DNA from: Aminobacter aminovorans
GTDB taxonomy: Bacteria; Pseudomonadota; Alphaproteobacteria; Rhizobiales; Rhizobiaceae
Length of the DNA: 64,000 nucleotides
NCBI RefSeq assembly: GCF_900445235.1
Contig: NZ_UFSM01000001.1
Span: 1,875,501-1,939,500 of the forward strand
Reading direction: 5' to 3'
A program made the position numbers and the translations under genes. Below the pieces are notes generated by a model. That model worked only from the letters and a program-made list of their open reading frames with translations. It had not been told where the DNA came from and did no database searches. Every line of letters starts with the position of its first letter. Positions within the stretch are counted from its first letter, which is position 1. Shown here piece after piece: positions 6,733 to 48,916 of the stretch.

Positions 6733-7917
6733 CTATTTCGCCAGGAACGCCTCGATGCGCTCCAACGCGCGCAGGATGTTCTCTTCCGAGTTGGCGTAGG
6801 ACAACCTGATGTAGCCCTCGCCCAATATGCCGAAGTCGGGCCCGCCGATCAGGGCGACCCCGGCGTCCTCGAGCAAGGCCGAGGCCAGCTTCTTGGCCTT
6901 CCAACCGGTCTGGCTGATGTTGGGAAACGCATAGAAAGCGCCCTTTGGCGTGACGCAGGAAACGCCTGGGATGGCGTTCAGCCCTTCGACAACGATCCGG
7001 CGCCTGTTGTCGAACGCGCGCATCATGCGCTCAACGTCGTCCTGCGGGCCGTCGATAGCAGCAATGCCGGCGAACTGGCTCGGTGCGTTGACGCAGGACC
7101 AGCAATTGACGGCGAGCTTCCGCACCTTATCGTAGAGGCGGCCGCCTTCGGTCGCATTCGGCCAGATCGACCAGCCCATGCGCCAGCCGGTCATCGCCCA
7201 GGTCTTGGACCAGCCGTTAAGCACGATCAGCCGGTCGCGGATCTCGGGGAAGGTCAGCAACGAGACGTGGCTTTCGCCATCATAGGTCATGACGTCGTAG
7301 ATCTCGTCCGACATGATTGCGACATGTGGATGGGCCTCGAGGCCCTTGACCAGCTTGGCGATTTCGACGCGCGGCGTCACCCCACCTGTCGGATTGGCCG
7401 GAGAATTGAGGATCAGCAGCCGCGTCTTCGGCGTGATCAGCGCAAGCGTCTCCTCGGCCGAGAAGGCAAAGCCGTTGGCCTCGCGCATAGGCACCGGCAC
7501 CGGTGTCGCCCCGGTGAATTCGATCATCGAGCGATAGATCGGGAAACCCGGATCCGGATAGAGGATCTCGGCGCCCGGTTCGCCGAACATCAGGATCGCG
7601 GCGAACATCGTCGGCTTGCCGCCGGGCATGATCATCACGCTGTCCGGCGACACCTCGACGCCTGTCGTGGCAAGCGTGCGTCGCACCACCGCTTCGCGCG
7701 TCGCCAGCAGGCCGTTGGCCGGCGTGTAGCCGTGATGGCCATCGCGCAGCGCCTTGATGGCGGCCTCGACGATATGCTCCGGCGTGCGGAAGTCGGGCTG
7801 TCCGATACCCAGATTGACGATATCGCGCCCCTCATGGAGCAGGGCCGTGGCACGGGCCAACACGGCAAAGGCATTTTCCTCGCCGAGGCGGTCGAAGGCG
7901 GCAATCGTGTGGAGCAT
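6733..7917 (-). CDS. Class I/II PLP-dependent aminotransferase
   Basis: 394 aa, the normal length for fold-type I aspartate/aromatic-type aminotransferases. It shows NLGIGQPDF, HHGYTPANG, the NSPANPTGG motif, SDEIYD, and the PLP-binding Lys in NGWSKTWAMTGWRMG; a conserved Arg near the C-terminus (YIRLSY) would bind the substrate carboxylate. The ATG at 7917 gives the family N-terminus; the longer open frame upstream reads into the divergent GNAT promoter. The exact amino-acid specificity cannot be told from sequence. Confidence 0.9.
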   Translation of the reverse strand: MLHTIAAFDRLGEENAFAVLARATALLHEGRDIVNLGIGQPDFRTPEHIVEAAIKALRDGHHGYTPANGLLATREAVVRRTLATTGVEVSPDSVMIMPGGKPTMFAAILMFGEPGAEILYPDPGFPIYRSMIEFTGATPVPVPMREANGFAFSAEETLALITPKTRLLILNSPANPTGGVTPRVEIAKLVKGLEAHPHVAIMSDEIYDVMTYDGESHVSLLTFPEIRDRLIVLNGWSKTWAMTGWRMGWSIWPNATEGGRLYDKVRKLAVNCWSCVNAPSQFAGIAAIDGPQDDVERMMRAFDNRRRIVVEGLNAIPGVSCVTPKGAFYAFPNISQTGWKAKKLASALLEDAGVALIGGPDFGILGEGYIRLSYANSEENILRALERIEAFLAK

Positions 7918-16859: not shown

Positions 16860-17035
16860 CGTTCGAAGCCTGTTTACGATGTCTCCAACATTGTTCGATG
16901 TTTGAATTTTTTCAACCCGCCATGAGATTTTAATTGATTGTGACGGTGACGAGCCATATATCCGCGCTTGCCCAAAGTCGCACGTGCCTGTGGGTGTCCG
17001 CCGATCCCTCGAATGGCGAGGAAATCGGTAAGGTA

Positions 17036-17400
17036 ACTGGAGCTAACCCCTCCAGTCGATTTAGCGGCCAACCGCAAAATCGAGGACACCTTGAAGCAAC
17101 GACGGTGCGGGCCTTTCTGGTTCTCTTCCGGCTGTCCAAAAGCCGGGGTTACTGAAGAGGCACACCTTCATTGCCGGCAGTGCGGAACGGGTCTTCCCAT
17201 TTCCAAGCCAAGGCAGACAAAGCGAACCGAAGCCGGGCTGGCTTAGGTTCACCGCCGCGTGAAGCGCATTTATGGTTCCAGGGTCTCCACAGGCTGGATC
17301 CATCAAATAGCGGTCATGTCTTTGTCCACCGCGGGATTCCGCGGCCGGGAACGGCCGTCCCGCAGCTTGATGATTTTTGCGCGGCAGGACCGCGCGATGG
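17036..17400 (+). promoter_or_regulatory. Structured leader region of the ornithine/lysine decarboxylase gene; possible speF-type RNA
   Basis: There is no coding gene between 16860 and 17408 (549 bp). The region holds several inverted repeats: ACTGGAG/CTCCAGT at 17036-17055, and just before the gene a strong hairpin with outer arms GCGGGA/TCCCGC (17331-17336, 17358-17363) and inner arms CGGCCG/CGGCCG (17342-17347, 17352-17357), followed by a short T run at ~17374. Alphaproteobacterial decarboxylase genes of this type are known to carry the speF cis-regulatory RNA motif. I infer that identity from context and could not match the consensus. Confidence 0.35.
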
Positions 17401-28278: not shown

Positions 28279-28682
28279 GCGGCGGCCTTGACCTTGACGC
28301 CCGCAACGACTGCAACCGTCTTGCCGTCGGACAGCACGGCGGTGACGCCGTCCTTGGCGAGGCGGACCTCGGTGACGGTGCCGGACGTCTTGCCGTCGGC
28401 CGAGGTGATGTTGCGGCCGATCAATGCATCCGCCTGGGCGAGTGCAGACGACTGCAGAATCTGATCGAGGCGCGCATTCATCTGCACCGACTGCTCGACC
28501 TGCGAGAAGGTGGCGAGCTGGGCCACATACTCGGTCGATTCCATCGGCTTGGTCGGGTCCTGGTTCTTCATCTGCGCCATGAGCAGCTTGAGGAAGGACT
28601 GGTAGTCGACCTGGGTCTTGGAGCCGGTCGACTTGTTGGTGCTGGTATTTGCGTTGACTGGCGCGGTGAAATCAATGGCCAT
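28275..28682 (-). CDS. flgD: Flagellar hook assembly protein FlgD (short form)
   Basis: 135 aa. The conserved N-terminal core DYQSFLKLLMAQMKNQDPTK and STEYVAQLATFSQVEQ are clear. It is much shorter than the ~220-residue enteric FlgD because the C-terminal Tudor/FnIII half is reduced to a small beta segment (TVTEVRLAKDGVTAVLSDGK), as is usual in rhizobia. It caps the growing hook. Its start codon shares one base with the flbT stop region. Confidence 0.95.
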   Translation of the reverse strand: MAIDFTAPVNANTSTNKSTGSKTQVDYQSFLKLLMAQMKNQDPTKPMESTEYVAQLATFSQVEQSVQMNARLDQILQSSALAQADALIGRNITSADGKTSGTVTEVRLAKDGVTAVLSDGKTVAVVAGVKVKAAA

Positions 28683-29122
28683 CAGAATTTGCCTCCGGCT
28701 GCGACGGCGCGTTCGACGGGCTGGGAATCGTTGCCGGCGATGATGCGCTGCTCGAGTGGGTAGAGAGAACGGATGGTCTTCAGTGCTTCGTAGACGTGGT
28801 CTTCGGCAACGAGGCGGTCGACATGCTTGAGGCTCGACAGGATCTCGGCATTGTCGAAGGTCGCGAGCAGCAGCGGCAGCGAGCGGCGGAACATGTCGCG
28901 CGCCTGGACTGCGCCGATCGGGTCGACCAGCATCACCTGCAGGATGAAGTAGAGCTGGCGCAGCGGCGTCGAAGCCTGCTCTGGCTGCAGCACGTGGCTT
29001 TCGAGCAGGAATTGCACATCGTTGAGCAGCTCGAGCGAGACCTTGCGGTCGGCACGCACGACGGCACCATTGATGTAGATTTTCTCGTTGGCCTTCAGCG
29101 ATATCTTCAGGGTGTTTTTCAT
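28682..29122 (-). CDS. flbT: Flagellin post-transcriptional repressor FlbT
   Basis: 146 aa. Starts MKNTLKISLKANEKIYINGAVVRADRKVSLELLND, the FlbT signature. In Caulobacter FlbT binds the 5' leader of flagellin mRNA and lowers its stability; in other alphaproteobacteria it can act positively. The structured leaders of the flagellin genes in this window are its obvious candidate targets. Overlaps flaF by four bases. Confidence 0.95.
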   Translation of the reverse strand: MKNTLKISLKANEKIYINGAVVRADRKVSLELLNDVQFLLESHVLQPEQASTPLRQLYFILQVMLVDPIGAVQARDMFRRSLPLLLATFDNAEILSSLKHVDRLVAEDHVYEALKTIRSLYPLEQRIIAGNDSQPVERAVAAGGKF

Positions 29123-29466
29123 TGGATGCCGTCGCGGATGATCTGCGAAACCTCGATCAGGCCTTCGAAACTGTCGGCGCGGCCCTGGCGGATGTCTTCG
29201 GATTCACGCAGCAGCCACAGGCCGATCGAGATGAGATTGGCTCGCAGTTCCTTGGGCAGTGCGTTCTCGGGATTGCCGAGATCGTCCATCAGCGAGGTCC
29301 AGACGCGGTTGGTGAAGTTCAGCGCGGCGATCGCCTCGTTGGAGTTGGCTCCGGCTTCGCTGGCCTTGGTCAGCATGTCGATCGAGCGGCTGAGAAGCTG
29401 ACGTTCGCGATCCCGCGCATCGGCGACGGAGTCGGTCTGAATGTCGGCATAGGAGAATTGATACAT
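29119..29466 (-). CDS. flaF: Flagellar biosynthesis regulator FlaF
   Basis: 115 aa. Family features are REREQLLSR-like RERQLLSRSIDMLTKA, AALNFTNRVWTSLMDDLGNPENALPKELRANLISIGLWLL. FlaF works with FlbT to adjust flagellin synthesis and secretion in alphaproteobacteria. Overlaps flbT by four bases, so the two are made together. Confidence 0.94.
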   Translation of the reverse strand: MYQFSYADIQTDSVADARDRERQLLSRSIDMLTKASEAGANSNEAIAALNFTNRVWTSLMDDLGNPENALPKELRANLISIGLWLLRESEDIRQGRADSFEGLIEVSQIIRDGIQ

Positions 29467-29492: not shown

Positions 29493-30536
29493 TCAGAGGT
29501 AGTTCATCAGGCTGAGCTTCTGGATGCGTGCCGTCAATGCGTAGGATTTCTCGATCATCGAGATCAGGTCGCTGACGCGCGTCGCCGCCTTCTCGGGGTT
29601 GACGCCCTCGGTGTTGATAATGTGGCGCTCGAACAGGTCCATCTGCATCTTGATGCGGTCGGTGGCGTTGGTGACGCGCTGCTCGATGATGCCGGTCTGC
29701 GATTCAAGCTGGCCGATGTCGCTGATGGCGGTGCCGATGATCGAGACCGCGCGGGTGACGAGCGCGCCGCGCGCAGCAGCACCGACATTTGAATCGAGCA
29801 GGTCGCTGACCATTGCGGCAGCCATGGCAACCTTGCGAATGCCGACATTGTTGGCGCTGACCGAGGATTCGGTGGTCTCGTTGAGCGTGATGCGGCTGGT
29901 GATGCCTTGGTCGGTGGCGTTGGAGAAGTTTGCCTGCCAGCCGGCGCCGAGGAACATCGGTTCGACGACCGAGGTCATGAAGGTATTCATCTGGGTGGCC
30001 GAGATGGACTGCGCCGCCGGATCGTTCTGGGTGAAGCCGAAATGCGTCTGGAAGGCGGCGTCGAAGGCCGCCTTGGCCGGCGAGCCGGCCTTGAATTCGT
30101 TGATCGGCTTGACGTCGGTGTTGGTTCCGGCGAACAGGTATTCGCCGTTGAGGCTGGTGTTGAGCACCGAGGTCAGCGTGTCGAGCGTGCCGCGCGCAGC
30201 CTTCTGCGTCAGCGCATAGGCGGCATCGCCGGAAGAGCTGCTGGTCAGGCTGGCGAGGAAGGTCTGGGCTGCCTTGCCGACCTCGTTGAGCGACTTCTGC
30301 GTCGCCGACAGGCGCGACGACACCAGGCCGTTCGAATCGACGATGCCTTCCAGCCGCGAGTGGTCGCGGTGGAGCGTGGCCGACTGAGCGGCGCGGGCGC
30401 CAAGGGACAGGCCGATGTCGGCGACGAAGCCGGTGGTCGCTTCCTTCTGCGCCTTGATGAGCTCCGACTGCTGGCGCATCATCGAGTAGCGCAGGGCGTT
30501 GGTGACCGCGGAGGAGGAGACGAATGTTGCTTTCAT
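29493..30536 (-). CDS. flgL: Flagellar hook-associated protein 3 (FlgL)
   Basis: 347 aa. Flagellin-type N-terminus adapted to the junction (AVTNALRYSMMRQQSELIKAQKEA) and the conserved C-terminal coiled coil (NATDRIKMQMDLFERHI, LISMIEKSYALTARIQKLSLMNYL). FlgL forms the last junction ring between hook and filament. Four bases separate its start from the flgK stop. Confidence 0.94.
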   Translation of the reverse strand: MKATFVSSSAVTNALRYSMMRQQSELIKAQKEATTGFVADIGLSLGARAAQSATLHRDHSRLEGIVDSNGLVSSRLSATQKSLNEVGKAAQTFLASLTSSSSGDAAYALTQKAARGTLDTLTSVLNTSLNGEYLFAGTNTDVKPINEFKAGSPAKAAFDAAFQTHFGFTQNDPAAQSISATQMNTFMTSVVEPMFLGAGWQANFSNATDQGITSRITLNETTESSVSANNVGIRKVAMAAAMVSDLLDSNVGAAARGALVTRAVSIIGTAISDIGQLESQTGIIEQRVTNATDRIKMQMDLFERHIINTEGVNPEKAATRVSDLISMIEKSYALTARIQKLSLMNYL

Positions 30537-40999: not shown

Positions 41000-41048
41000 G
41001 TGCGTAAGTTCCCCGCAATACTTTCCGGAGAGACCCTAGCCCGCGAAG

Positions 41049-41061
41049 CTTGTGCGAAAAT
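41049..41061 (-). promoter_or_regulatory. Flagellar upstream box variant of fliF
   Basis: Coding-strand ATTTTCGCACAAG, 50-62 bp before the GTG start; one change in the CGCGCAAG core and a less conserved left half. Confidence 0.35.
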
Positions 41062-41065
41062 GTTA

Positions 41066-41090
41066 TGGGCCGCGCAAGATGCGCGGCCCA
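41066..41090 (-). terminator. Likely terminator of the first flagellin transcript
   Basis: A 10-bp perfect stem TGGGCCGCGC/GCGCGGCCCA (41066-41075 with 41081-41090). On the minus strand it is followed by TAACATTTTC, a weak T run. A second hairpin (41121-41142, CGCCGCCTG arms) lies closer to the gene. Confidence 0.55.
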
Positions 41091-41173
41091 TGACATTTCG
41101 TCGGATTGTTCTCGCTGAACCGCCGCCTGGTTTCAGGCGGCGCGGCCTTCGAAAGCCGAGACCAAGTCAAACA

Positions 41174-42175
41174 TCAGCTCTTAAACAGCGACAGGATGTT
41201 CTGCGAGTTCGAGTTGGCGATCGACAAGGCCTGGATACCAAGCTGCTGCTGGACCTGGAGGGCCTGCAGGCGGGTCGATTCCTTGTTCATGTCGGCATCG
41301 ACCAACTGGCCGACGCCGCGGTCGATGGAGTCCATCAGGCTGGTGGTGAAGGTCTTCTGCAGGTCGATCTGGCTCTTGGCAGCGCCGAGCGTGGTGGCGG
41401 CGTCGGTCATTTCGGCCAAAGTGACTTCGGCGACCTTGACCATCTGCAGGATCTGGTCGTAGCTGAAGCCCTTCACCGAAAGGGTTGCAACAGCGTAGCC
41501 GTCAGTGGCGGCGACGGCAGCACCGGGGGTCGTGGGATTGACGGCCGTGTTGTCACGGGCACCCGAGGTGCCGAGGCGCAGGCCTTCGAGGATGCCCTTG
41601 TTGACGTTGTTGGTGGCGGCGGCATCATAGAGCTTTACGCCCTGGACCTTGATGTCGATGGTTGCCAGCGTGACGGTGCCTGAATTGTCACGGATGAAGC
41701 CCGATACGATCTTGGCGTCGTTGTGGACGCCGGCCGCCGAATGGCCGGCGGCCGTGGTCGAGTTGACGGAAAGCCAGTTGGCGCCGGAGAAGCTGGCGCT
41801 GTCGGCATAGCTCTTGAGCTGCGCCTGCAAGGCCTTGATCTCGACGTCGATCTTGTTCTTGTCAGCATCCGAGCCGTTGGCTGCGGCAACAAGCTTGACC
41901 TTGATGTCGTTGAGGGTGTCGATCGACTTGTGCATGGCCGTGTAGGCGGTGTCGACCTTCGACGCGCCGAGGCCGAGCGCATCCTGGACAGTGGAAAGCG
42001 CCCTGTTGTCCGAACGCATGGTGGTTGCGATCGACCAGTAGGCGGCGTTGTCGGAGGCCTCTGCGACGCGGTAGCCGGTCGAGATGCGGGCCTGGGTGGT
42101 ATTCAAAGCCTTGTTGGTGGTGTTGAGGCTCTGAAGCGCCGTCAACGCCGAAGCATTGGTCATGATACTGGACAT
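41174..42175 (-). CDS. Flagellin (divergent member)
   Basis: 333 aa. Conserved D0/D1 ends: TNASALTALQSLNTTNKALN, AYWSIATTMRSDNRALSTVQ, and GVGQLVDADMNKESTRLQ, QLGIQALSIANSNSQNILSL. It is the most divergent of the five (for example MSSIMTNASAL for MSSINTNASAM, STGYRVAEASD for ATGLRVAEASD) and its gene lacks the conserved RNA leader of the other four; instead it has the flagellar upstream box ~200 bp upstream. It may be a specialised subunit of the filament. It is monocistronic. Confidence 0.95.
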   Translation of the reverse strand: MSSIMTNASALTALQSLNTTNKALNTTQARISTGYRVAEASDNAAYWSIATTMRSDNRALSTVQDALGLGASKVDTAYTAMHKSIDTLNDIKVKLVAAANGSDADKNKIDVEIKALQAQLKSYADSASFSGANWLSVNSTTAAGHSAAGVHNDAKIVSGFIRDNSGTVTLATIDIKVQGVKLYDAAATNNVNKGILEGLRLGTSGARDNTAVNPTTPGAAVAATDGYAVATLSVKGFSYDQILQMVKVAEVTLAEMTDAATTLGAAKSQIDLQKTFTTSLMDSIDRGVGQLVDADMNKESTRLQALQVQQQLGIQALSIANSNSQNILSLFKS

Positions 42176-42377
42176 CGAAATAAACCCCTCTGTCAGAGCC
42201 GCGCGTTCTGCCGCCGCGAACCGGTTGCGGATGCCGTACGTTCTGCCTGCGGCAGCCGAACCGTCATAGCAATTGGTTAACCATAACTACGAACTTATGG
42301 TTAACGGCAGATTAAAGACCGCACGCCGACAGGTCTTCGAATTTACCGTTACGTGGCGGAATCTATGCTCGCCGTAA

Positions 42378-42390
42378 CTTGCGCGAGGCT
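42378..42390 (-). promoter_or_regulatory. Flagellar upstream box upstream of the divergent flagellin
   Basis: Coding-strand AGCCTCGCGCAAG, identical to the flgE and DUF1217 boxes but 203-215 bp before the start codon, implying a long leader if it is the promoter. The rest of 42176-42496 holds a terminator at 42431-42467 and no gene. Confidence 0.45.
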
Positions 42391-42430
42391 AACCCGCGAT
42401 GCCAGGCGAGTGGAAAGGCGGTGGGGAAAT

Positions 42431-42467
42431 GAAATCGGGCCGCACCCTTGGGGTACGGCCCGATTTC
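42431..42467 (-). terminator. Terminator of the second flagellin gene
   Basis: A 12-bp perfect stem GAAATCGGGCCG/CGGCCCGATTTC (42431-42442 with 42456-42467), 30 bp after the flagellin stop. Confidence 0.75.
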
Positions 42468-42496
42468 ACGACTGGAGATGTCCTGACACAGACGCG

Positions 42497-43474
42497 TCAG
42501 CCCTTGAACAGCGACAGGATCGACTGCGAGTTGCCGTTGGCGATCGACAGCGCCTGGATTCCGAGCTGCTGCTGGACCTGGAGGGCCTGCAGGCGGGTCG
42601 ATTCCTTGTTCATGTCGGCATCGACGAGCTGGCCGACACCACGGTCGATGGAGTCCATCAGGCTCGAGGTGAAGGTCTTCTGCAGCTCGATACGGCTCTT
42701 GGCGGCGCCGAGATTGGTGGCGGCCGTCGTCATTTCCTTCAGAGCTGCTTCGACGATGCCAAGCTGCTTGGTCAACTGGGCGTCGGAGTAGCCCTTAACC
42801 GCGACCGTCATGACCGAGTAGGTGTCGGTGGCGGCGTCGGTGCCGGGGGTAGGGGCAGACAGCGCGGCGCGGACACCGGTCGTGCCCAGACGCTGGCCAT
42901 CCAGTATACCGGTCTTGATGGCGGCAGCACCTCCGGTTTCGAAGAGCTTGATGTCGTCGACCTTGACATCGATGGTCGACACCGAAGCGGCACCGGAGGC
43001 ATCGCGGTTGAAGGCGGAGACGATCTTGACGTCGTCGGCAACGGTGGCCGCAGCGCCGCTCTTGACCGAGAGCATGTTGGTGCCGGAAAAGGTCGCGCCG
43101 TCGGCATAGGCTTTGAGCTGGCCCTGGAGCGCCTTGATTTCGGTGTCGATCTTTTCCTTGTCGGCAGCCGAAGCGCCATTGGCGGCGACCAGCTTGACCT
43201 TGATGTCGTTGAGCGTGTCGATGGCCTTGTTCATGCCGGTGTAGGCGGTATCGACCTTCGATGCGCCGAGACCGAGCGAATCCTGAACGGTGGACAGCGC
43301 CTTGTTGTCCGAACGCATGGTTGTGGCGATCGACCAGTAGGCGGCGTTGTCGGAGGCTTCGGCGACGCGGAGACCCGTGGCGATACGGCCCTGAGTGATG
43401 CTGAGCGACTTGTTGGTGGCAGTCAGCGTCTGTAGCGCGGTCATTGCCGACGCGTTGGTGTTGATGCTGGACAT
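42497..43474 (-). CDS. Flagellin
   Basis: 325 aa. Ends are nearly identical to the other flagellins (SSINTNASAMTALQTLTATN; GVGQLVDADMNKESTRLQ; NGNSQSILSLFKG); the central region (~residues 140-230) differs, as expected of the surface-exposed part. Exported by the flagellar apparatus and polymerised into the complex filament. Preceded by a variant of the structured leader (43510-43577). Confidence 0.95.
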   Translation of the reverse strand: MSSINTNASAMTALQTLTATNKSLSITQGRIATGLRVAEASDNAAYWSIATTMRSDNKALSTVQDSLGLGASKVDTAYTGMNKAIDTLNDIKVKLVAANGASAADKEKIDTEIKALQGQLKAYADGATFSGTNMLSVKSGAAATVADDVKIVSAFNRDASGAASVSTIDVKVDDIKLFETGGAAAIKTGILDGQRLGTTGVRAALSAPTPGTDAATDTYSVMTVAVKGYSDAQLTKQLGIVEAALKEMTTAATNLGAAKSRIELQKTFTSSLMDSIDRGVGQLVDADMNKESTRLQALQVQQQLGIQALSIANGNSQSILSLFKG

Positions 43475-43509
43475 GGGAAATACGCCCCTCGAATAAGCAA
43501 CTTACGGGA

Positions 43510-43577
43510 CATGCCGGGTCGACCGGTATGGCGGCGCGGCATCATGCCAATGAACGCCAGAAGGGGTCACCCGCCAT
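43510..43577 (-). promoter_or_regulatory. Conserved flagellin 5' leader RNA element, copy 1
   Basis: Read on the mRNA strand, ATGGCGG...CCGCCAT arms enclose a hairpin region and the conserved GGCATGATGCC mini-hairpin; then CATACCGG/CCGGCATG follows with one mismatch. This copy is the most divergent and its first inner hairpin is only partly conserved. Confidence 0.6.
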
Positions 43578-43708
43578 GGAAATGACCATCGCATCTTAAC
43601 CTTACCGAACTGCTAACAACTCTATGAGGTTCATTTGTTAGGCGGTTGAAATATATAGAGTTTCCTCGGCCTTAGAGCATCGCTGCGCCGGTGCGGGCCC
43701 AAACGCAA

Positions 43709-43735
43709 ACGGGCCGCACCTGAGGTTCGGCCCGT
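43709..43735 (-). terminator. Terminator of the third flagellin gene
   Basis: Stem ACGGGCCG/CGGCCCGT (43709-43716 with 43728-43735), followed on the minus strand by TTGCGTTT. Closely related to the terminators at 44988 and 46343. Confidence 0.75.
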
Positions 43736-43764
43736 CCTGGTACAAGATGCTTGAGACGGTTCGA

Positions 43765-44748
43765 TCAGCCGCGGAAGAGCGACATGATCGACTGCGAGTT
43801 GCCGTTGGCAATCGACAGTGCCTGGATGCCGAGCTGCTGCTGGACCTGGAGGGCCTGCAGGCGAGTCGATTCCTTGTTCATGTCGGCATCGACGAGCTGG
43901 CCAACGCCGCGATCAATGGAGTCCATCAGGCTCGCGGTGAAGGTCTTCTGCAGCTCGATGCGGCTCTTGGCGGCGCCGAGGTCGGTGGCAGCCGTGTTCA
44001 TGTCCTTGAGCGCGCTTTCGACGACGCCGAGCATCTGGCTGAGCTGCTGGTCGTTGGCAAACAGCGTGCCGTCGGTCAGCTTCATGGTGGCGACCTGGAA
44101 GGTGTCCGCGGCATCGTAGGTGCCGAGGGTGACTGCGTTGGCCGCGCCTTCGACGCCAGCGGCGGTGCGTTCGGAGTCGAGGATGCCCTTGCCGGTCGTA
44201 GCAACGCCAGCGCCGGCTTCGTACAGCTTGATGCCCTCGACCTTGATGTCGATGGTCGAGATCGAGGCGGTGCCCGAAGCGTCGCGGTTGAAGGCCGAGA
44301 CGACCTTGACGTCAGCAGCCACGGCGGCGCCGCTGTTCACCGACAGCATGTTGGTGCCCGAGAAGGTGGCGCCGTCGGCATAAGCCTTGAGCTGGTCCTG
44401 CAGGGCCTTCACTTCGGTCTGGATCTTGGCCTTGTCGGCGTTCGACGCGCCGTTGGCGGCGACGAGCTTGACCTTGATCTCGTTGAGGGTGTCGATGGCC
44501 TTGTTCATGCCGGTGTACGCGGTGTCGACCTTCGAAGCGCCGAGGCCGAGCGAGTCCTGGACCGTCGACAGGGCCTTGTTGTCCGAACGCATGGTGGTGG
44601 CGATCGACCAGTAGGCGGCGTTGTCGGAAGCTTCCGCGACGCGGAGACCGGTGGCGATACGGCCCTGGGTGGTGTTGAGAGCTTTGTTGGTTGCAGACAG
44701 GGTCTGCAGCGCGGTCATTGCCGACGCATTGGTATTGATGCTGGACAT
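43765..44748 (-). CDS. Flagellin
   Basis: 327 aa from MSSINTNASAM (44748); nine codons of open frame upstream are within the leader and not part of the family. Same conserved ends as its neighbours; centre includes YEAGAGVATTGKGILDSERT and LTDGTLFANDQQLSQML. Preceded by the structured leader at 44786-44850 and followed by its own terminator, so it is a single-gene unit. Confidence 0.95.
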   Translation of the reverse strand: MSSINTNASAMTALQTLSATNKALNTTQGRIATGLRVAEASDNAAYWSIATTMRSDNKALSTVQDSLGLGASKVDTAYTGMNKAIDTLNEIKVKLVAANGASNADKAKIQTEVKALQDQLKAYADGATFSGTNMLSVNSGAAVAADVKVVSAFNRDASGTASISTIDIKVEGIKLYEAGAGVATTGKGILDSERTAAGVEGAANAVTLGTYDAADTFQVATMKLTDGTLFANDQQLSQMLGVVESALKDMNTAATDLGAAKSRIELQKTFTASLMDSIDRGVGQLVDADMNKESTRLQALQVQQQLGIQALSIANGNSQSIMSLFRG

Positions 44749-44785
44749 GGGAAAATACGCCCCGAAAAAAGACAAAAAACAGGGA

Positions 44786-44850
44786 CATACCGGGCCGACC
44801 GGTATGGCGGAGCGGCATCATGCCCATGATCGCTGTCGATCACCCGCCAT
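44786..44850 (-). promoter_or_regulatory. Conserved flagellin 5' leader RNA element, copy 2
   Basis: mRNA-strand fold: outer stem ATGGCGG/CCGCCAT, inner hairpin TGATCG-ACAG-CGATCA, inner mini-hairpin GGCA-TGA-TGCC, then hairpin CATACCGG-TCGGC-CCGGTATG. The element ends 37 nt before the start codon. Confidence 0.75.
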
Positions 44851-44987
44851 GACGCATCATTCTCATATAGACATTTCTAAAACTCTAACTTTCCAGGAAA
44901 TAATCGGTCAACCAATGCAGATTTGTAGAATAATCAACTGGTCGGACGATGACCTAATCGCCTGGGCGGAAGAAGGTCCCAAGTAAA

Positions 44988-45015
44988 AACGGGCCGCACC
45001 GAAGTGCGGCCCGTT
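44988..45015 (-). terminator. Terminator of the fourth flagellin gene
   Basis: A 12-bp perfect stem AACGGGCCGCAC/GTGCGGCCCGTT (44988-44999 with 45004-45015) with a TTCG-type loop, and TTTTTAC following on the minus strand. Confidence 0.88.
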
Positions 45016-45042
45016 CTCCGAGATGTGCCTGAGACGGTCCGA

Positions 45043-46140
45043 TCAGCCGCGGAACAGCGACATGATCGACTGCGAGTTGCCGTTGGCAATCGACAGCGCC
45101 TGGATACCGAGCTGCTGCTGGACCTGGAGAGCCTGCAGACGGGTCGATTCCTTGTTCATGTCGGCGTCGACGAGCTGGCCGACACCGCGATCGATGGAGT
45201 CCATCAGGCTCGAAGTGAAGGCCTTCTGCAGTTCGATGCGGCTCTTGGCGGCACCGAGATTGGTGGCAGCCGTCGTCATCGACTTGAGCGCGCCTTCAAC
45301 CTTGCTCAGCATCGAGCCGATGAAGGCGTCGGTGACGCCGGCAGCGGTGATGTCGAGGTTGGCGACGGAGACGCCGGTGATGGACGTAGCCGTGCCGTCA
45401 GCTGCTGCGGCCGCGGTTGCGGCAGCCGTCGCCGATGCGGTGTCGGTGCCGCCACCTGCCACCGAGGCAGCATAGGCGCTGTCGTAGGCAGTCTGGGCAG
45501 CCTTTGAGCTCCAGATTGCGGTCTGGCGGTCGAGGATACCGGCGTTCTTGACGTTGGCCGGGGTGCCGGCGCCCGAATCATAGAGCTTGATGCCTTCGAC
45601 GTTGACGTCGATGGTCGAGATCGAGGCGGTGCCCGACGCGTCGCGGTTGAAGGCCGAAACGATCTTGGCATCCTGCTGGACACCGGTGTCGGCGGCTGCT
45701 GCGGCGCCCGCGGCGTTCTTGTCGGAGGCAACCGAAAGGTAGTTGGCACCCGAGAAGGTCGCGCCGACGGCATAGGCCTTCAGCTGGCCCTGCAGCGCCT
45801 TGATTTCGGTCTGGATCTTGGCCTTGTCGGCGGCAGACGCGCCGTTGGCGGCGACCAGCTTGACCTTGATGTCATTGAGCGTGTCGATGGCCTTGTTCAT
45901 GCCGGTGTAGGCGGTGTCGACCTTCGAAGCGCCGAGACCGAGCGAATCCTGAACGGTGGAAAGCGCCTTGTTGTCGGAACGCATGGTGGTGGCGATCGAC
46001 CAGTAGGCGGCGTTGTCGGAGGCTTCTGCAACGCGGAGACCCGTGGCGATACGGCCCTGGGTGACGTTGAGCGACTTGTTGGTGGCTGCAAGCGTCTGCA
46101 GCGCCGTCATTGCTGACGCGTTGGTATTGATGCTGGACAT
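45043..46140 (-). CDS. Flagellin (long form)
   Basis: 365 aa, 30-40 residues longer than the others because of an Ala/Thr/Ser-rich insertion in the central variable region (roughly residues 205-260: SSKAAQTAYDSAYAASVAGG and ATAAATAAAAADGTATSITG). Conserved ends unchanged. The insertion should project from the filament surface. Preceded by leader copy 3 and followed by the terminator at 44988. Confidence 0.95.
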   Translation of the reverse strand: MSSINTNASAMTALQTLAATNKSLNVTQGRIATGLRVAEASDNAAYWSIATTMRSDNKALSTVQDSLGLGASKVDTAYTGMNKAIDTLNDIKVKLVAANGASAADKAKIQTEIKALQGQLKAYAVGATFSGANYLSVASDKNAAGAAAAADTGVQQDAKIVSAFNRDASGTASISTIDVNVEGIKLYDSGAGTPANVKNAGILDRQTAIWSSKAAQTAYDSAYAASVAGGGTDTASATAAATAAAAADGTATSITGVSVANLDITAAGVTDAFIGSMLSKVEGALKSMTTAATNLGAAKSRIELQKAFTSSLMDSIDRGVGQLVDADMNKESTRLQALQVQQQLGIQALSIANGNSQSIMSLFRG

Positions 46141-46177
46141 GGGAATTACGCCCCTAGGAAATGCAAAGGTACAGGGA

Positions 46178-46243
46178 CATACCGGACCGACCGGTATGGC
46201 GGAGCGGCATCATGCCCATGATCCCCGAGGGATCACCCGCCAT
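46178..46243 (-). promoter_or_regulatory. Conserved flagellin 5' leader RNA element, copy 3
   Basis: mRNA-strand fold: ATGGCGG/CCGCCAT outer stem, inner hairpin TGATCCC-TCG-GGGATCA, GGCA-TGA-TGCC mini-hairpin, then CATACCGG-TCGGT-CCGGTATG. 37 nt before the start codon with AGGGGCG as ribosome site. Confidence 0.78.
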
Positions 46244-46342
46244 GCCGGGTAATCTCTCCGATACTCCCTACCAAATCGCTAAGCGTTAGAAACATTGCGG
46301 ATAATCTTGGGATTTATTTTGAATGCTCCGGGCAGACGCAAA

Positions 46343-46369
46343 ACGGGCCGCACCTGAGGTGCGGCCCGT
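46343..46369 (-). terminator. Terminator of the fifth flagellin gene
   Basis: A 12-bp perfect stem ACGGGCCGCACC/GGTGCGGCCCGT (46343-46354 with 46358-46369), TTTTGCG following on the minus strand. Confidence 0.85.
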
Positions 46370-46398
46370 CCTGATACGGAATGCCTGAGACGGTTCGG

Positions 46399-47391
46399 TC
46401 AGCCGCGGAACAGCGACATGATCGACTGCGAGTTGCCATTGGCAATCGACAGCGCCTGGATGCCGAGCTGCTGCTGGACCTGGAGGGCCTGCAGGCGGGT
46501 CGATTCCTTGTTCATGTCGGCATCGACGAGCTGGCCGACGCCGCGGTCGATCGAGTCCATCAGGCTGGACGTGAAGGCCTTCTGCAGCTCGATGCGGCTC
46601 TTGGCGGCGCCGAGGTTGGTGGCGGCAGTCGTCATTTCCTTCAGCGCGCCTTCGACAACGCCGAGCATGGCGCCGATCTGGGTATCGCTGAAGCCCTTAA
46701 CCGAAAGCGTCGCCACGGTGTAAGTGTCGGTGCCGACAGCGGCAGCGCCGGCCGTCGGGTTCGAGGCGGCAGCGACGCGCGCGCCGGTGCCGAGGCGGTG
46801 TGCATCGAGGATACCGTCGGTCAGGCCGGTGGAGGCAGCCGAGGCGTCATAGAGCTTGATGTCCTGAACCTTGACGTCGATGGTCGAGATCGAGGCCGTG
46901 CCCGATGCATCGCGGTTGAAGGCCGAAACGATCTTGACGTCGTCGGCGGTGCCGGCGACGGCATGGCCGGTCGTCGTGTCGACCGAAAGCATGTTCGAGC
47001 CCGAGAAGGTGGCGCCGTCGGCATAGGCCTTCAGCTGGCTCTGCAGCGCCTTGATCTCGGTGTCGATCTTCTCCTTGTCGGCGGCCGAAGCGCCGTTGGC
47101 AGCGACCAGCTTGACCTTGATGTCGTTGAGCGTGTCGATGGCCTTGTTCATGCCGGTGTAGGCGGTGTCGACCTTGGAAGCGCCGAGGCCGAGCGAGTCC
47201 TGGACTGTCGAGAGGGCCTTGTTGTCCGAGCGCATCGTGGTGGCGATCGACCAGTAGGCGGCGTTGTCGGAAGCTTCTGCGACGCGGAGACCCGTGGCGA
47301 TACGGCCCTGGGTGACGTTGAGCGACTTGTTGGTGGCTGCGAGGGTCTGCAGCGCGGTCATTGCTGACGCGTTGGTGTTGATGCTGGACAT
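46399..47391 (-). CDS. Flagellin
   Basis: 330 aa. N-terminal ~110 and C-terminal ~95 residues are almost identical to the long flagellin at 45043, with a distinct centre (STGLTDGILDAHRLGTGARV). It is the first of the five in transcription order and lies next to fliP. Preceded by leader copy 4. Confidence 0.95.
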   Translation of the reverse strand: MSSINTNASAMTALQTLAATNKSLNVTQGRIATGLRVAEASDNAAYWSIATTMRSDNKALSTVQDSLGLGASKVDTAYTGMNKAIDTLNDIKVKLVAANGASAADKEKIDTEIKALQSQLKAYADGATFSGSNMLSVDTTTGHAVAGTADDVKIVSAFNRDASGTASISTIDVKVQDIKLYDASAASTGLTDGILDAHRLGTGARVAAASNPTAGAAAVGTDTYTVATLSVKGFSDTQIGAMLGVVEGALKEMTTAATNLGAAKSRIELQKAFTSSLMDSIDRGVGQLVDADMNKESTRLQALQVQQQLGIQALSIANGNSQSIMSLFRG

Positions 47392-47428
47392 GGGAAATAC
47401 GCCCCTAGGATATGCGATGGTACAGGGA

Positions 47429-47497
47429 CATACCGGACCGACCGGTATGGCGGAGCGGCATCATGCCCATGATCTCTCCGTGAGGATCACCCGCCAT
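47429..47497 (-). promoter_or_regulatory. Conserved flagellin 5' leader RNA element, copy 4
   Basis: mRNA-strand fold: ATGGCGG/CCGCCAT outer stem (47491-47497 with 47447-47453), inner hairpin TGATCCTC-ACG-GAG(A)GATCA, GGCA-TGA-TGCC, then CATACCGG-TCGGT-CCGGTATG (47429-47449). 37 nt before the start codon. Confidence 0.78.
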
Positions 47498-47681
47498 GCC
47501 GGGCAATCTCAACGATAGAAGCTACCAAAGGTCTAAGCAGTATGGTTAACATGCATTAACCTGCTGATTTTCCCCGGTTTTGTATGCTCGCAAGACGTTT
47601 GGCCGCGGCGCGCGCGAGGCGGGCTGCGGCCAGAACAAGGGACAGCGGCAATAGCGCGCCCGCAAGCGGACGCGCGGTGAT

Positions 47682-48413
47682 CTAGGTGAAGGATCGAACG
47701 AGGCTGCCGACGAGCAGGTTCCAGCCGTCGATGAGCACGAAGAACAATATCTTGAAAGGCAGCGACACGACCGTGGGCGGCAGCATCATCATGCCCATGG
47801 CCATGGTGATGGTGGCGACGATCAGGTCGATGACAAGGAAGGGCAGCACGATCAGAAAGCCGATCTCGAAGCCGCGGCGGATTTCGGAGATCATGAAGGC
47901 CGGAACCAGGATGCGCAGGTCGACCTTGTCTTCCGACACTGTCTGGCCACGCTCGCGGGCAAGGTCGGCGAACAGGTTGAAGTCCTTGTCGCGGACGTTG
48001 CGCATCATGAAGGTGCGGAACGGATCGGAAATGCGGTCGACGGCCTGCGCCTGGGTGATCTGGTTGTCCATCAGCGGCTTGACGCCGTTCTGCCAGGCCT
48101 GATCGAAGGTCGGCGCCATGACGTAGAAGGTCATGAACAGGGACAGCGAGATCAGGATCAGATTGGCCGGCGTCGACTGCAGGCCGATGCCGGTGCGCAG
48201 GATCGAAAAGGCAATGACGAAGCGGGTGAAGCTCGTCACCATGATCAGCAGGCCCGGGGCCACCGAAAGAACCGTAAGCAGGCCAAACATCTGGATGATG
48301 TAGCCGATGGTGGCGCCATCGGTGTTGCCGAGCTGGCTCAGGTCGAGCTGCTGCGCGCTCGCAGGCGCGATAGCGCCAGCGAGGATGGCTGCGGTGGCCA
48401 GGAATTTTTTCAT
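47682..48413 (-). CDS. fliP: Flagellar biosynthetic protein FliP
   Basis: 243 aa. Signal peptide (KKFLATAAILAGAIAPASAQ), then the FliP motifs TSFTRFVIAFSILRTGIGLQSTP, MAPTFDQAWQNGV and LVPAFMISEIRRGFEIGFLI. Core of the export gate. Last gene of the flgB-to-fliP run; starts within the fliL stop (four-base overlap). Confidence 0.96.
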   Translation of the reverse strand: MKKFLATAAILAGAIAPASAQQLDLSQLGNTDGATIGYIIQMFGLLTVLSVAPGLLIMVTSFTRFVIAFSILRTGIGLQSTPANLILISLSLFMTFYVMAPTFDQAWQNGVKPLMDNQITQAQAVDRISDPFRTFMMRNVRDKDFNLFADLARERGQTVSEDKVDLRILVPAFMISEIRRGFEIGFLIVLPFLVIDLIVATITMAMGMMMLPPTVVSLPFKILFFVLIDGWNLLVGSLVRSFT

Positions 48414-48916
48414 TCGAAAAGCAACGTTCTGATCAGCACTTCCTTGACGTGGCCGTCGCTGCGGATGGCGGCGCGTTCGTCGAGGTCGGTCTTGAGATGG
48501 CGGAAAGCGCTGGCGCCCTGGACCTGGTGGATCCTAAGCGTGCGCACGAATGCGAGCAGGTCCTGGTGGACGCGCTCGGCGAGATCCACGGATTGCGGCG
48601 CGTCGAGCACAAGCGACACCTCGAGGCGGATCCACATGGTGTCGGGCGCGGCGAGATTGGCCGTGATGGCGGGCAGCTGGACCAGCGTGCCGGCGGCTTC
48701 GCTGGCCGGACCGTGCTCGGCCGCCACTTCCTTGGCGCCGTGCGCCTTTGGCGCTTCGGCTTCCGCTTGCTCGACCGGCGTGCTTTCGCTCTTGAGGTAG
48801 CTGCCCGAAAGCCAGCCCATGCCGATGGCGGCTGATGTCATCACCGCCAGGATGCCGAGCTGGACGACCAGCGACGGGCCGGGCTTTTGGGGGAGGAACT
48901 GTTCTATGTTTGACAT
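48410..48916 (-). CDS. fliL: Flagellar basal body-associated protein FliL
   Basis: 168 aa. One N-terminal helix (SLVVQLGILAVMTSAAIGMGW), an Ala/Glu linker, and the FliL domain with MWIRLEVSLVLDAPQSVDLAERVHQ, LLAFVRTLRIHQVQG and ADSDGHVKEVLIRTLLFE-type end (RSDGHVKEVLIRTLLFE). It forms a ring around the stator. Overlaps fliP by four bases. Confidence 0.94.
   Translation of the reverse strand: MSNIEQFLPQKPGPSLVVQLGILAVMTSAAIGMGWLSGSYLKSESTPVEQAEAEAPKAHGAKEVAAEHGPASEAAGTLVQLPAITANLAAPDTMWIRLEVSLVLDAPQSVDLAERVHQDLLAFVRTLRIHQVQGASAFRHLKTDLDERAAIRSDGHVKEVLIRTLLFE

Follow-up and report, generated by a model that had tools for sequence, protein, structure and literature searches.

The 64,000-nucleotide stretch of the Aminobacter aminovorans genome analysed here (contig NZ_UFSM01000001.1, positions 1,875,501 to 1,939,500; henceforth the window) carries five flagellin genes on its minus strand, and four of them are preceded by a common structured RNA leader. 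Comparison of the leader sequences from many genomes indicates that it has a conserved fold built on two stems, P1 and P2, and a fixed placement before flagellin genes, and, by the same kind of comparison, that it is restricted to one of two flagellar systems and to the clade of the regulator FlbT belonging to that system. Our reading, made with moderate confidence, is of a cis-acting leader that controls translation: it would mask the ribosome site, and FlbT-dependent action would lift this masking.

In the four window copies the 5′ edge of the leader lies 106–110 nt upstream of the start codon. Along the mRNA, P1 (the outer stem AUGGCGG/CCGCCAU) encloses P2, a variable hairpin of the form UGAUC.../...GAUCA, and P2b, which reads GGC-AUGAU-GCC with an AUGAN-type loop. 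P3 (CCGG-N5-CCGG) follows 3′ of P1, and then come UGUCCC, a linker of 17–19 nt, the Shine-Dalgarno region with GGGGCG ending 8 or 9 nt before AUG, and the AUG itself. The GGGGCG likely contains the Shine-Dalgarno sequence, and a fourth helix, P4, is likely formed by pairing of UGUCCC with the Shine-Dalgarno GGGAC/GGGGC. A preliminary description of the window had placed such an element upstream of four of the five flagellin genes (43510–43577, 44786–44850, 46178–46243 and 47429–47497), and all four were confirmed on the minus strand. The outer stem that it gave as ATGGCGG/CCGCCAT, GGCATGATGCC and CCGG-N5-CCGG are present in all four copies, and conservation extends beyond the element as first drawn, continuing to the start codon (UGUCCC ... 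GGGRCR). Two further details stood in three copies and failed in the one at 43510: the element ends 35 nt rather than 37 nt before the start codon there, and the variable hairpin, said to keep its pairing, has a mismatch (TGACC/GTTCA). In the last hairpin of the same copy there is also an A.C mismatch.

Comparative evidence for the leader fold

Folded singly, the four copies do only weakly better than shuffled sequence (z of -0.8, -2.2, -1.5 and -1.1). The minimum-energy folds of the 46 and 47 kb copies contain P1, P2, P2b and a P4-like helix without P3, that of the 44.7 kb copy replaces P1 with a long last hairpin, and that of the 43.5 kb copy has neither P1 nor the long last hairpin. Single-sequence folding alone would not convince, and because these single-copy folds are weak and divergent the evidence for structure is comparative.

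A first covariance model, built from the four copies with base pairs only in P1, P2 and P2b, was searched in 101 genomes and matched 42 of them (the window's own genome and relatives); a second model (R2) was built from 30 copies. We also searched GTDB genomes with an exact pattern made of the AUGAN loop, P3 and the first P4 arm, which gave at least 119 stretches. Altogether 179 loci provided 252 hits and 232 different sequences, thinned to 172 leaders (117 from pattern loci and 55 from genome searches), in which the conservation of the loop, CCGG and UGUCC is partly fixed by the pattern and models used for collection. These were aligned with MAFFT from sequence only, and the 6216 column pairs were scored by a G-test with average product correction against a null of our own implementation, distinct from R-scape, in which parsimony substitutions were re-dealt among columns along the tree in 60 rounds.

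The top eight of the 6216 pairs are all base pairs of the fold (four in P1, three in P2 and one, the closing pair, in P3); E is below 0.05 for three of them (5.4e-6, 0.0086 and 0.024) and ranges from 0.12 to 2.7 for the rest. Because P1 and P2 were part of the model behind some of the 172 leaders, the test was repeated on leaders found by a pattern that touches neither stem (135, thinned to 95), and here the top four of 9730 pairs belonged to P1 or P2, two with E below 0.05 (5.5e-5 and 0.048). In our own test P1 and P2 covary beyond phylogeny, and the earlier proposal of a conserved, covarying flagellin-mRNA leader is borne out by these wider alignments. Just below the stem pairs, an A.G/G.A exchange at the junction of P1, P2 and P2b ranks 9 in the set of 172 (columns 34 and 48) and 5 in the set of 95 (columns 61 and 75); it is possibly a non-canonical pair.

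A smaller alignment of 30 rows gives a similar picture. Paired cells make up 90.3% of the total versus 33–48% when the partner is slid by 1–3 columns, and 48 cells are changed on both sides versus 16.3 in shuffles. Run unaided on this alignment, RNAalifold proposed P1, P2b, the P3 core and one stray pair, with P2 absent. In the wider set of leaders one P1 position shows UA, CG, GC and AU, and on the mRNA strand G-U against A.C cells number 74 to 41 in P1, 74 to 63 in P2 and 17 to 19 in P3. Across leaders P3 reads CCGG-N5-7-CCGG, with a longer loop in a few, and the core of this last hairpin consists of CCGG/CCGG and one covarying pair. Both P2b and the CCGG/CCGG core are nearly invariant and, as they hardly vary, give no covariation signal either way.

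The outer stem and the last hairpin share the bases CAT, from which the preliminary description had suggested that the two may compete, and such a competition between P1 and an extended P3 could act as a timer switch. The three extension pairs can form in many leaders (57-73 in 77%, 56-74 in 84% and 55-75 in 95%), their cells show 97 G-U versus 10 A.C, and the single-sequence fold of the 44.7 kb copy does have a long P3 instead of P1. We nonetheless find the switch very unlikely, since the extension over the shared CAT lacks covariation and all three pairs are kept in 111 of 172 leaders. Moreover, in the 27 rows where column 56 is unable to pair with U74, its P1 partner is Watson-Crick in 12, wobble in 2 and neither in 13. 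Nor is a timer by competition needed, as P1, the P3 core and P4 lie side by side and can all form together. Less probable still, to the point of being negligible, is an upstream open reading frame (ORF) coding for a leader peptide that starts in the AUGAN loop: an AUG is present there in nearly all leaders and opens frames in the window copies, but its frame relative to the flagellin is scattered (71, 50 and 47 among 168 scorable rows of the 172), 92 of the frames close while 76 still run on where the flagellin starts, and the encoded peptide is not conserved. A leader-peptide attenuator was rejected, there being no conserved upstream reading frame.

Distribution and the FlbT clades

R2 found the element in 120 of 397 genomes of Hyphomicrobiales and, with strict filters, in 0 of 288 other genomes from a class-wide sample, at least three of which are themselves members of Hyphomicrobiales. 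In searches of more than 40 genomes the filters are stricter and weak matches are lost, and the genome counts are lower bounds. As judged from these matches, the element is spread across many families of one order. Among viral contigs there was no exact match to the pattern. A flagellin lies directly downstream in all 33 loci fetched with the first model (the window's own genome supplying 4), the start codon having been placed by script in 32, and in L010 the ATG is plain in the sequence. Of the pattern stretches, at least 119 in number, at least 80 carry names that we take to be those of Hyphomicrobiales, or names of unclassified metagenome-assembled genomes (MAGs). Among the matches listed for these loci, 147 in number, a flagellin is downstream in 138 and 7 others are cut by the locus end, so that it follows 138 of the 140 testable ones; the distance from pattern to flagellin start is 26–53 nt in 136, 85 nt in one, and one was unplaced. 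Counted from the genes of the pattern-selected loci and the window, the element stands upstream of 144 of the 156 flagellin genes whose upstream sequence reaches 130 nt or more. In a Beijerinckiaceae MAG (L117) an element at 1521–1663 precedes an apparent methyl-accepting chemotaxis protein and not a flagellin, and in L123 an element with a P4-like pair (7336–7458, minus strand) is followed by a short ORF and a repetitive TTTQ-rich protein, with no flagellin found downstream.

An association of the leader with FlbT, raised earlier by analogy with Caulobacter, holds at the level of genomes. FlbT is encoded in 304 of the 397 genomes and in 120 of the 120 with the element, and the element occurs in 0 of the 93 without FlbT. 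Within four genera (g86, g123, g146 and g155) two or more FlbTs are encoded in every one of the 35 element genomes, and of the 20 genomes that have FlbT and lack the element 17 encode one FlbT and 3 (all g86) encode two; the copy number of G405 was entered as 3 where its listing shows 4, which leaves presence counts unaffected. A 1.5 Mb genome (G210) from the same family as the window has one copy of the element and one FlbT.

The association also extends to a single FlbT clade. In a tree of 66 FlbTs from 47 genomes, picked to contrast presence and absence of the element, one 100/100 branch separates 30 element-linked FlbTs from 33 others, and 0 of 500 label shuffles were as good. The 30 are encoded on the same contig as the element, about 12–32 kb away. 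Three FlbTs stand outside this count: that of G292, on another contig, which falls in the linked clade, and two of G240, one per clade. No solved relative of FlbT was found by sequence, and a structure model has a mean pLDDT (predicted local distance difference test) of 75 and is weak at the N-terminus. In Bradyrhizobium diazoefficiens (L079) the leaders stand before flagellins located between FliP and FliF-MotB, the order FliP-flagellin-FliF-MotB being that of the window, and this synteny fits the lateral flagellar gene list in a passage of PMC6406911.

The flagellins of the other system appear to have short leaders of a different kind (loci L258–L283), which we consider a candidate second leader type. 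In 14 genomes that lack the element and whose sole FlbT is of the other clade, a hairpin with an AGRA loop and five or more pairs occurs in 12 of 21 flagellin leaders, versus a mean of 1.2 and a maximum of 5 after shuffling, and in 0 of the 172 leaders of the present element. The contrast is exploratory, the motif having been picked after looking and several of the 21 leaders being near-copies; 21 of 27 leaders were used, with L254–L257, L271 and L273 omitted as other protein types.

Predicted masking of the ribosome-binding site and a proposed mechanism

Masking of the Shine-Dalgarno sequence by P4 is predicted from conservation and modelled pairing. Conservation of UGUCCC and GGG[A/G]C[A/G] is strong, and 92–99% of leaders allow each of the six P4 pairs, with UGUCC fixed by the pattern. 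A purine stands opposite the two P4 U in 169 and 157 of 170 rows, keeping the pairing, and on the mRNA strand P4 cells show 108 G-U versus 11 A.C. The predicted unpaired probability of the Shine-Dalgarno GGG is 0.044 in native leaders versus 0.19 when the upstream part is shuffled, and it is lower in 156 of 170 (2 rows were omitted from this test, and 2 from the test of cognate arms given below).

Upstream of the element a weak motif from -34 to -7 has a positional information of at most 0.36 bits (162 nonredundant upstream regions), and TTAACC-type words, TTAACC being part of the CtrA site, are enriched. From this fixed-distance motif and the TTAACC enrichment, the mRNA probably begins near the 5′ end of the element. 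The Sinorhizobium meliloti genes flaA, flaC and flaD are listed among genes with CtrA motifs in a part of PMC3616915, a paper on Sinorhizobium transcription starts whose main text mentions flaA a single time, for its CtrA motif, and a term search of the main text of a paper on Bradyrhizobium transcription starts (PMC4842269) gave no match. Upstream TTAACC-type sites also occur at flagellins that lack the leader, namely in two Aminobacter loci (L077 and L099) and in L112 and L128. The fifth flagellin gene of the window, whose upstream region was checked to 42300, has no R2 match upstream even with filters off, and by analogy it is perhaps a special paralog like Caulobacter FljJ.

In the mechanism that we favour, the flagellin mRNA would start at or just before the element and fold into P1, with P2 and the AUGAN-loop hairpin P2b inside it, and then into P3 and P4. 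The UGUCCC in P4 would cover the Shine-Dalgarno GGGAC/GGGGC, leading to poor translation by default. A trans-acting factor would recognise the AUGAN loop and the CCGG hairpin; this factor is most likely the system's own FlbT, whose binding would open P4 and allow translation to begin at the right stage of assembly. Passages in published work describe FlbT as translationally inducing the lateral flagellins LafA1 and LafA2 (PMC8429497) and as a translational activator in Brucella melitensis (PMC9812332), and mention that a motility screen in A. fabrum (Agrobacterium) hit flbT (PMC9812332).

Several observations weigh against this mechanism. The element is absent from 184 of the 304 FlbT-bearing genomes, 16 of which have two or more FlbTs. 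FlbT moves together with the entire flagellar system, so that co-occurrence and tree congruence do not distinguish it from FlaF or from any other gene there; co-occurrence is therefore support and not proof. Compensation in P4 is unsupported, cognate arms being better than non-cognate ones in 12 of 26 variant rows (p 0.71) and in 88 of 170 of all rows (p 0.12), and RNAalifold on the 30 rows proposed no P4. The helix is lost in several leaders of Rhizobiaceae, the family of the window (L017, L041 and L058), where a local hairpin GGUA-CGAG/CGGG-UACC just before AUG could cover the same Shine-Dalgarno sequence. The FlbT model, which is of low confidence, had no Foldseek match in the PDB at E of 0.001 or less. 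Finally, Caulobacter FlbT is described as a repressor that works with FljJ (passages in PMC7591256 and PMC3930126).

The last point is the ground for a reading with the same leader and the opposite sign, in which FlbT, alone or with a flagellin (cf. Caulobacter FljJ), would stabilise the masked form and repress translation until the co-repressor is secreted. The leaderless flagellin of the window and of some relatives could take the part of FljJ. We consider this unlikely, as the available passages on Brucella, the lateral flagellins of Bradyrhizobium and Agrobacterium point to a positive role, and a leader that masks itself would need an activator more than a repressor. Alternatively, the regulator could be something other than FlbT (a protein, a small RNA or a small molecule), or the leader might act mainly on mRNA stability. 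The conserved AUGAN loop, CCGG hairpin and UGUCCC would suit any specific ligand, the co-occurrence is not specific to FlbT, and a 5′-terminal structure can protect an mRNA; the clean agreement with one FlbT clade, together with the effects of FlbT on flagellin translation reported in the passages seen, makes these options rather improbable in our view.

An extension of FlbT-dependent relief, which we put forward as a tentative possibility, is that Hyphomicrobiales contain two ancient lineages of FlbT, each recognising a leader type of its own, the FlbT of the self-masking leader having become an activator while elsewhere it stayed a repressor. If true, this would explain the opposite signs reported for FlbT (passages of a 2015 review, PMC4347634, call its mechanism unresolved and set its sign in Caulobacter against the opposite one in Brucella) and would make the element an FlbT target RNA family with a defined fold. 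With a defined fold, found ahead of flagellins in many families, and one matched FlbT clade, the element gives binding, probing and mutation experiments something concrete to aim at; it would also add a new family to Rfam and serve as a sequence marker of one of the two flagellar systems.

Features of the leader region and of the associated genes in the window (positions of the window; R2, second covariance model)
Feature	Position	Strand	Basis or remark
Leader of flagellin 46399-47391, element to start codon	47389..47501	-	R2 107.0 bits, E 1.1e-22; alignments, pair counts
P1 of this leader	47491-47497/47447-47453	-	
P2 of this leader	47485-47489/47470-47474	-	
P2b hairpin of this leader, AUGAN loop	47457-47467	-	
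P3 of this leader, CCGG/CCGG	47442-47445/47433-47436	-	
P4 of this leader (predicted), UGUCCC with GGGGCG (likely Shine-Dalgarno)	47425-47430/47400-47405	-	
Leader of flagellin 45043-46140	46138..46247	-	R2 103.4 bits
Leader of flagellin 43765-44748	44746..44854	-	R2 96.7 bits
Leader of flagellin 42497-43474, weakest P2	43472..43581	-	R2 92.9 bits, one non-standard P2 pair
Promoter-like region upstream of leader at 47501	47508..47535	-	weak motif at fixed distance in relatives
Flagellin gene with leader	42497..43474	-	PF00669, PF00700
Flagellin gene with leader	43765..44748	-	ORF, PF00669 match, start by alignment
Flagellin gene with leader	45043..46140	-	ORF, PF00669 match, start by alignment
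Flagellin gene with leader	46399..47391	-	PF00669, PF00700
Fifth flagellin gene, without leader	41174..42175	-	PF00669
FlbT, candidate trans-acting regulator	28682..29122	-	PF07378 E 1.5e-40; in element-linked clade (L219)
FlaF	29119..29466	-	PF07309 E 1.7e-33

A sixth PF00669 match at 30117–30521, inside the ORF 29493–30536, was read as FlgL from its position. GC-rich inverted repeats (cgggccgcac...gcggcccg type) lie 3′ of flagellin genes at 43706–43737, 44985–45018 and 46340–46369; they may be terminators, in which case each gene would have its own transcript. Elsewhere in the window, Rfam matches to the ar45 sRNA and the speF leader adjoin at 16970–17116 and 17126–17276 (plus strand).

Comparison with known RNAs and regulatory systems

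No match to Rfam 15 overlapped the four copies, either at the gathering threshold in the window or at E up to 5 in 41000–48500, and in 20 related loci a limit of E 10 brought up only weak matches, all to unrelated families and none to flg-Rhizobiales. The literature searched (titles, abstract starts and passages) contained no description of the element that we could find, and nothing on leaders was found in PMC2936354.

Identity with the flg-Rhizobiales RNA (RF01736) was rejected, as neither the window nor the 20 loci matched it. RF01736 resembles the element in being a cis-regulatory RNA that precedes flagellar genes of this order, but it has another sequence with GGGA-loop hairpins, and in L034 it stands before ORFs that we ourselves read as FlgF-/FlgG-like. 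Its cut-off was reached in 0 of 61 genomes. Sub-threshold matches (cut-off 55 bits) came from two other families of the order, L034 being the best with 49.6 bits and L035 having 34.4.

In the CsrA-FliW system the masking of a flagellin ribosome-binding site is under protein control and CsrA binds GGA. The element would share the masking of a flagellin ribosome-binding site, whereas its conserved loop is AUGAN and not GGA; the FlbT model, of low confidence, had no match to CsrA. The short leaders of the other flagellar system are likewise flagellin leaders in genomes with FlbT, and they differ in their AGRA loops and in the FlbT clade that accompanies them. The 5′ untranslated region of Caulobacter fljK is also a flagellin leader under post-transcriptional control in which FlbT is implicated, an interaction of FlbT with the flagellin leader having been reported in 2000 (as cited in passages of PMC4347634 and PMC3930126). 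The control there is repression, however, and the element occurs in 0 of the 288 other genomes of the class-wide sample.

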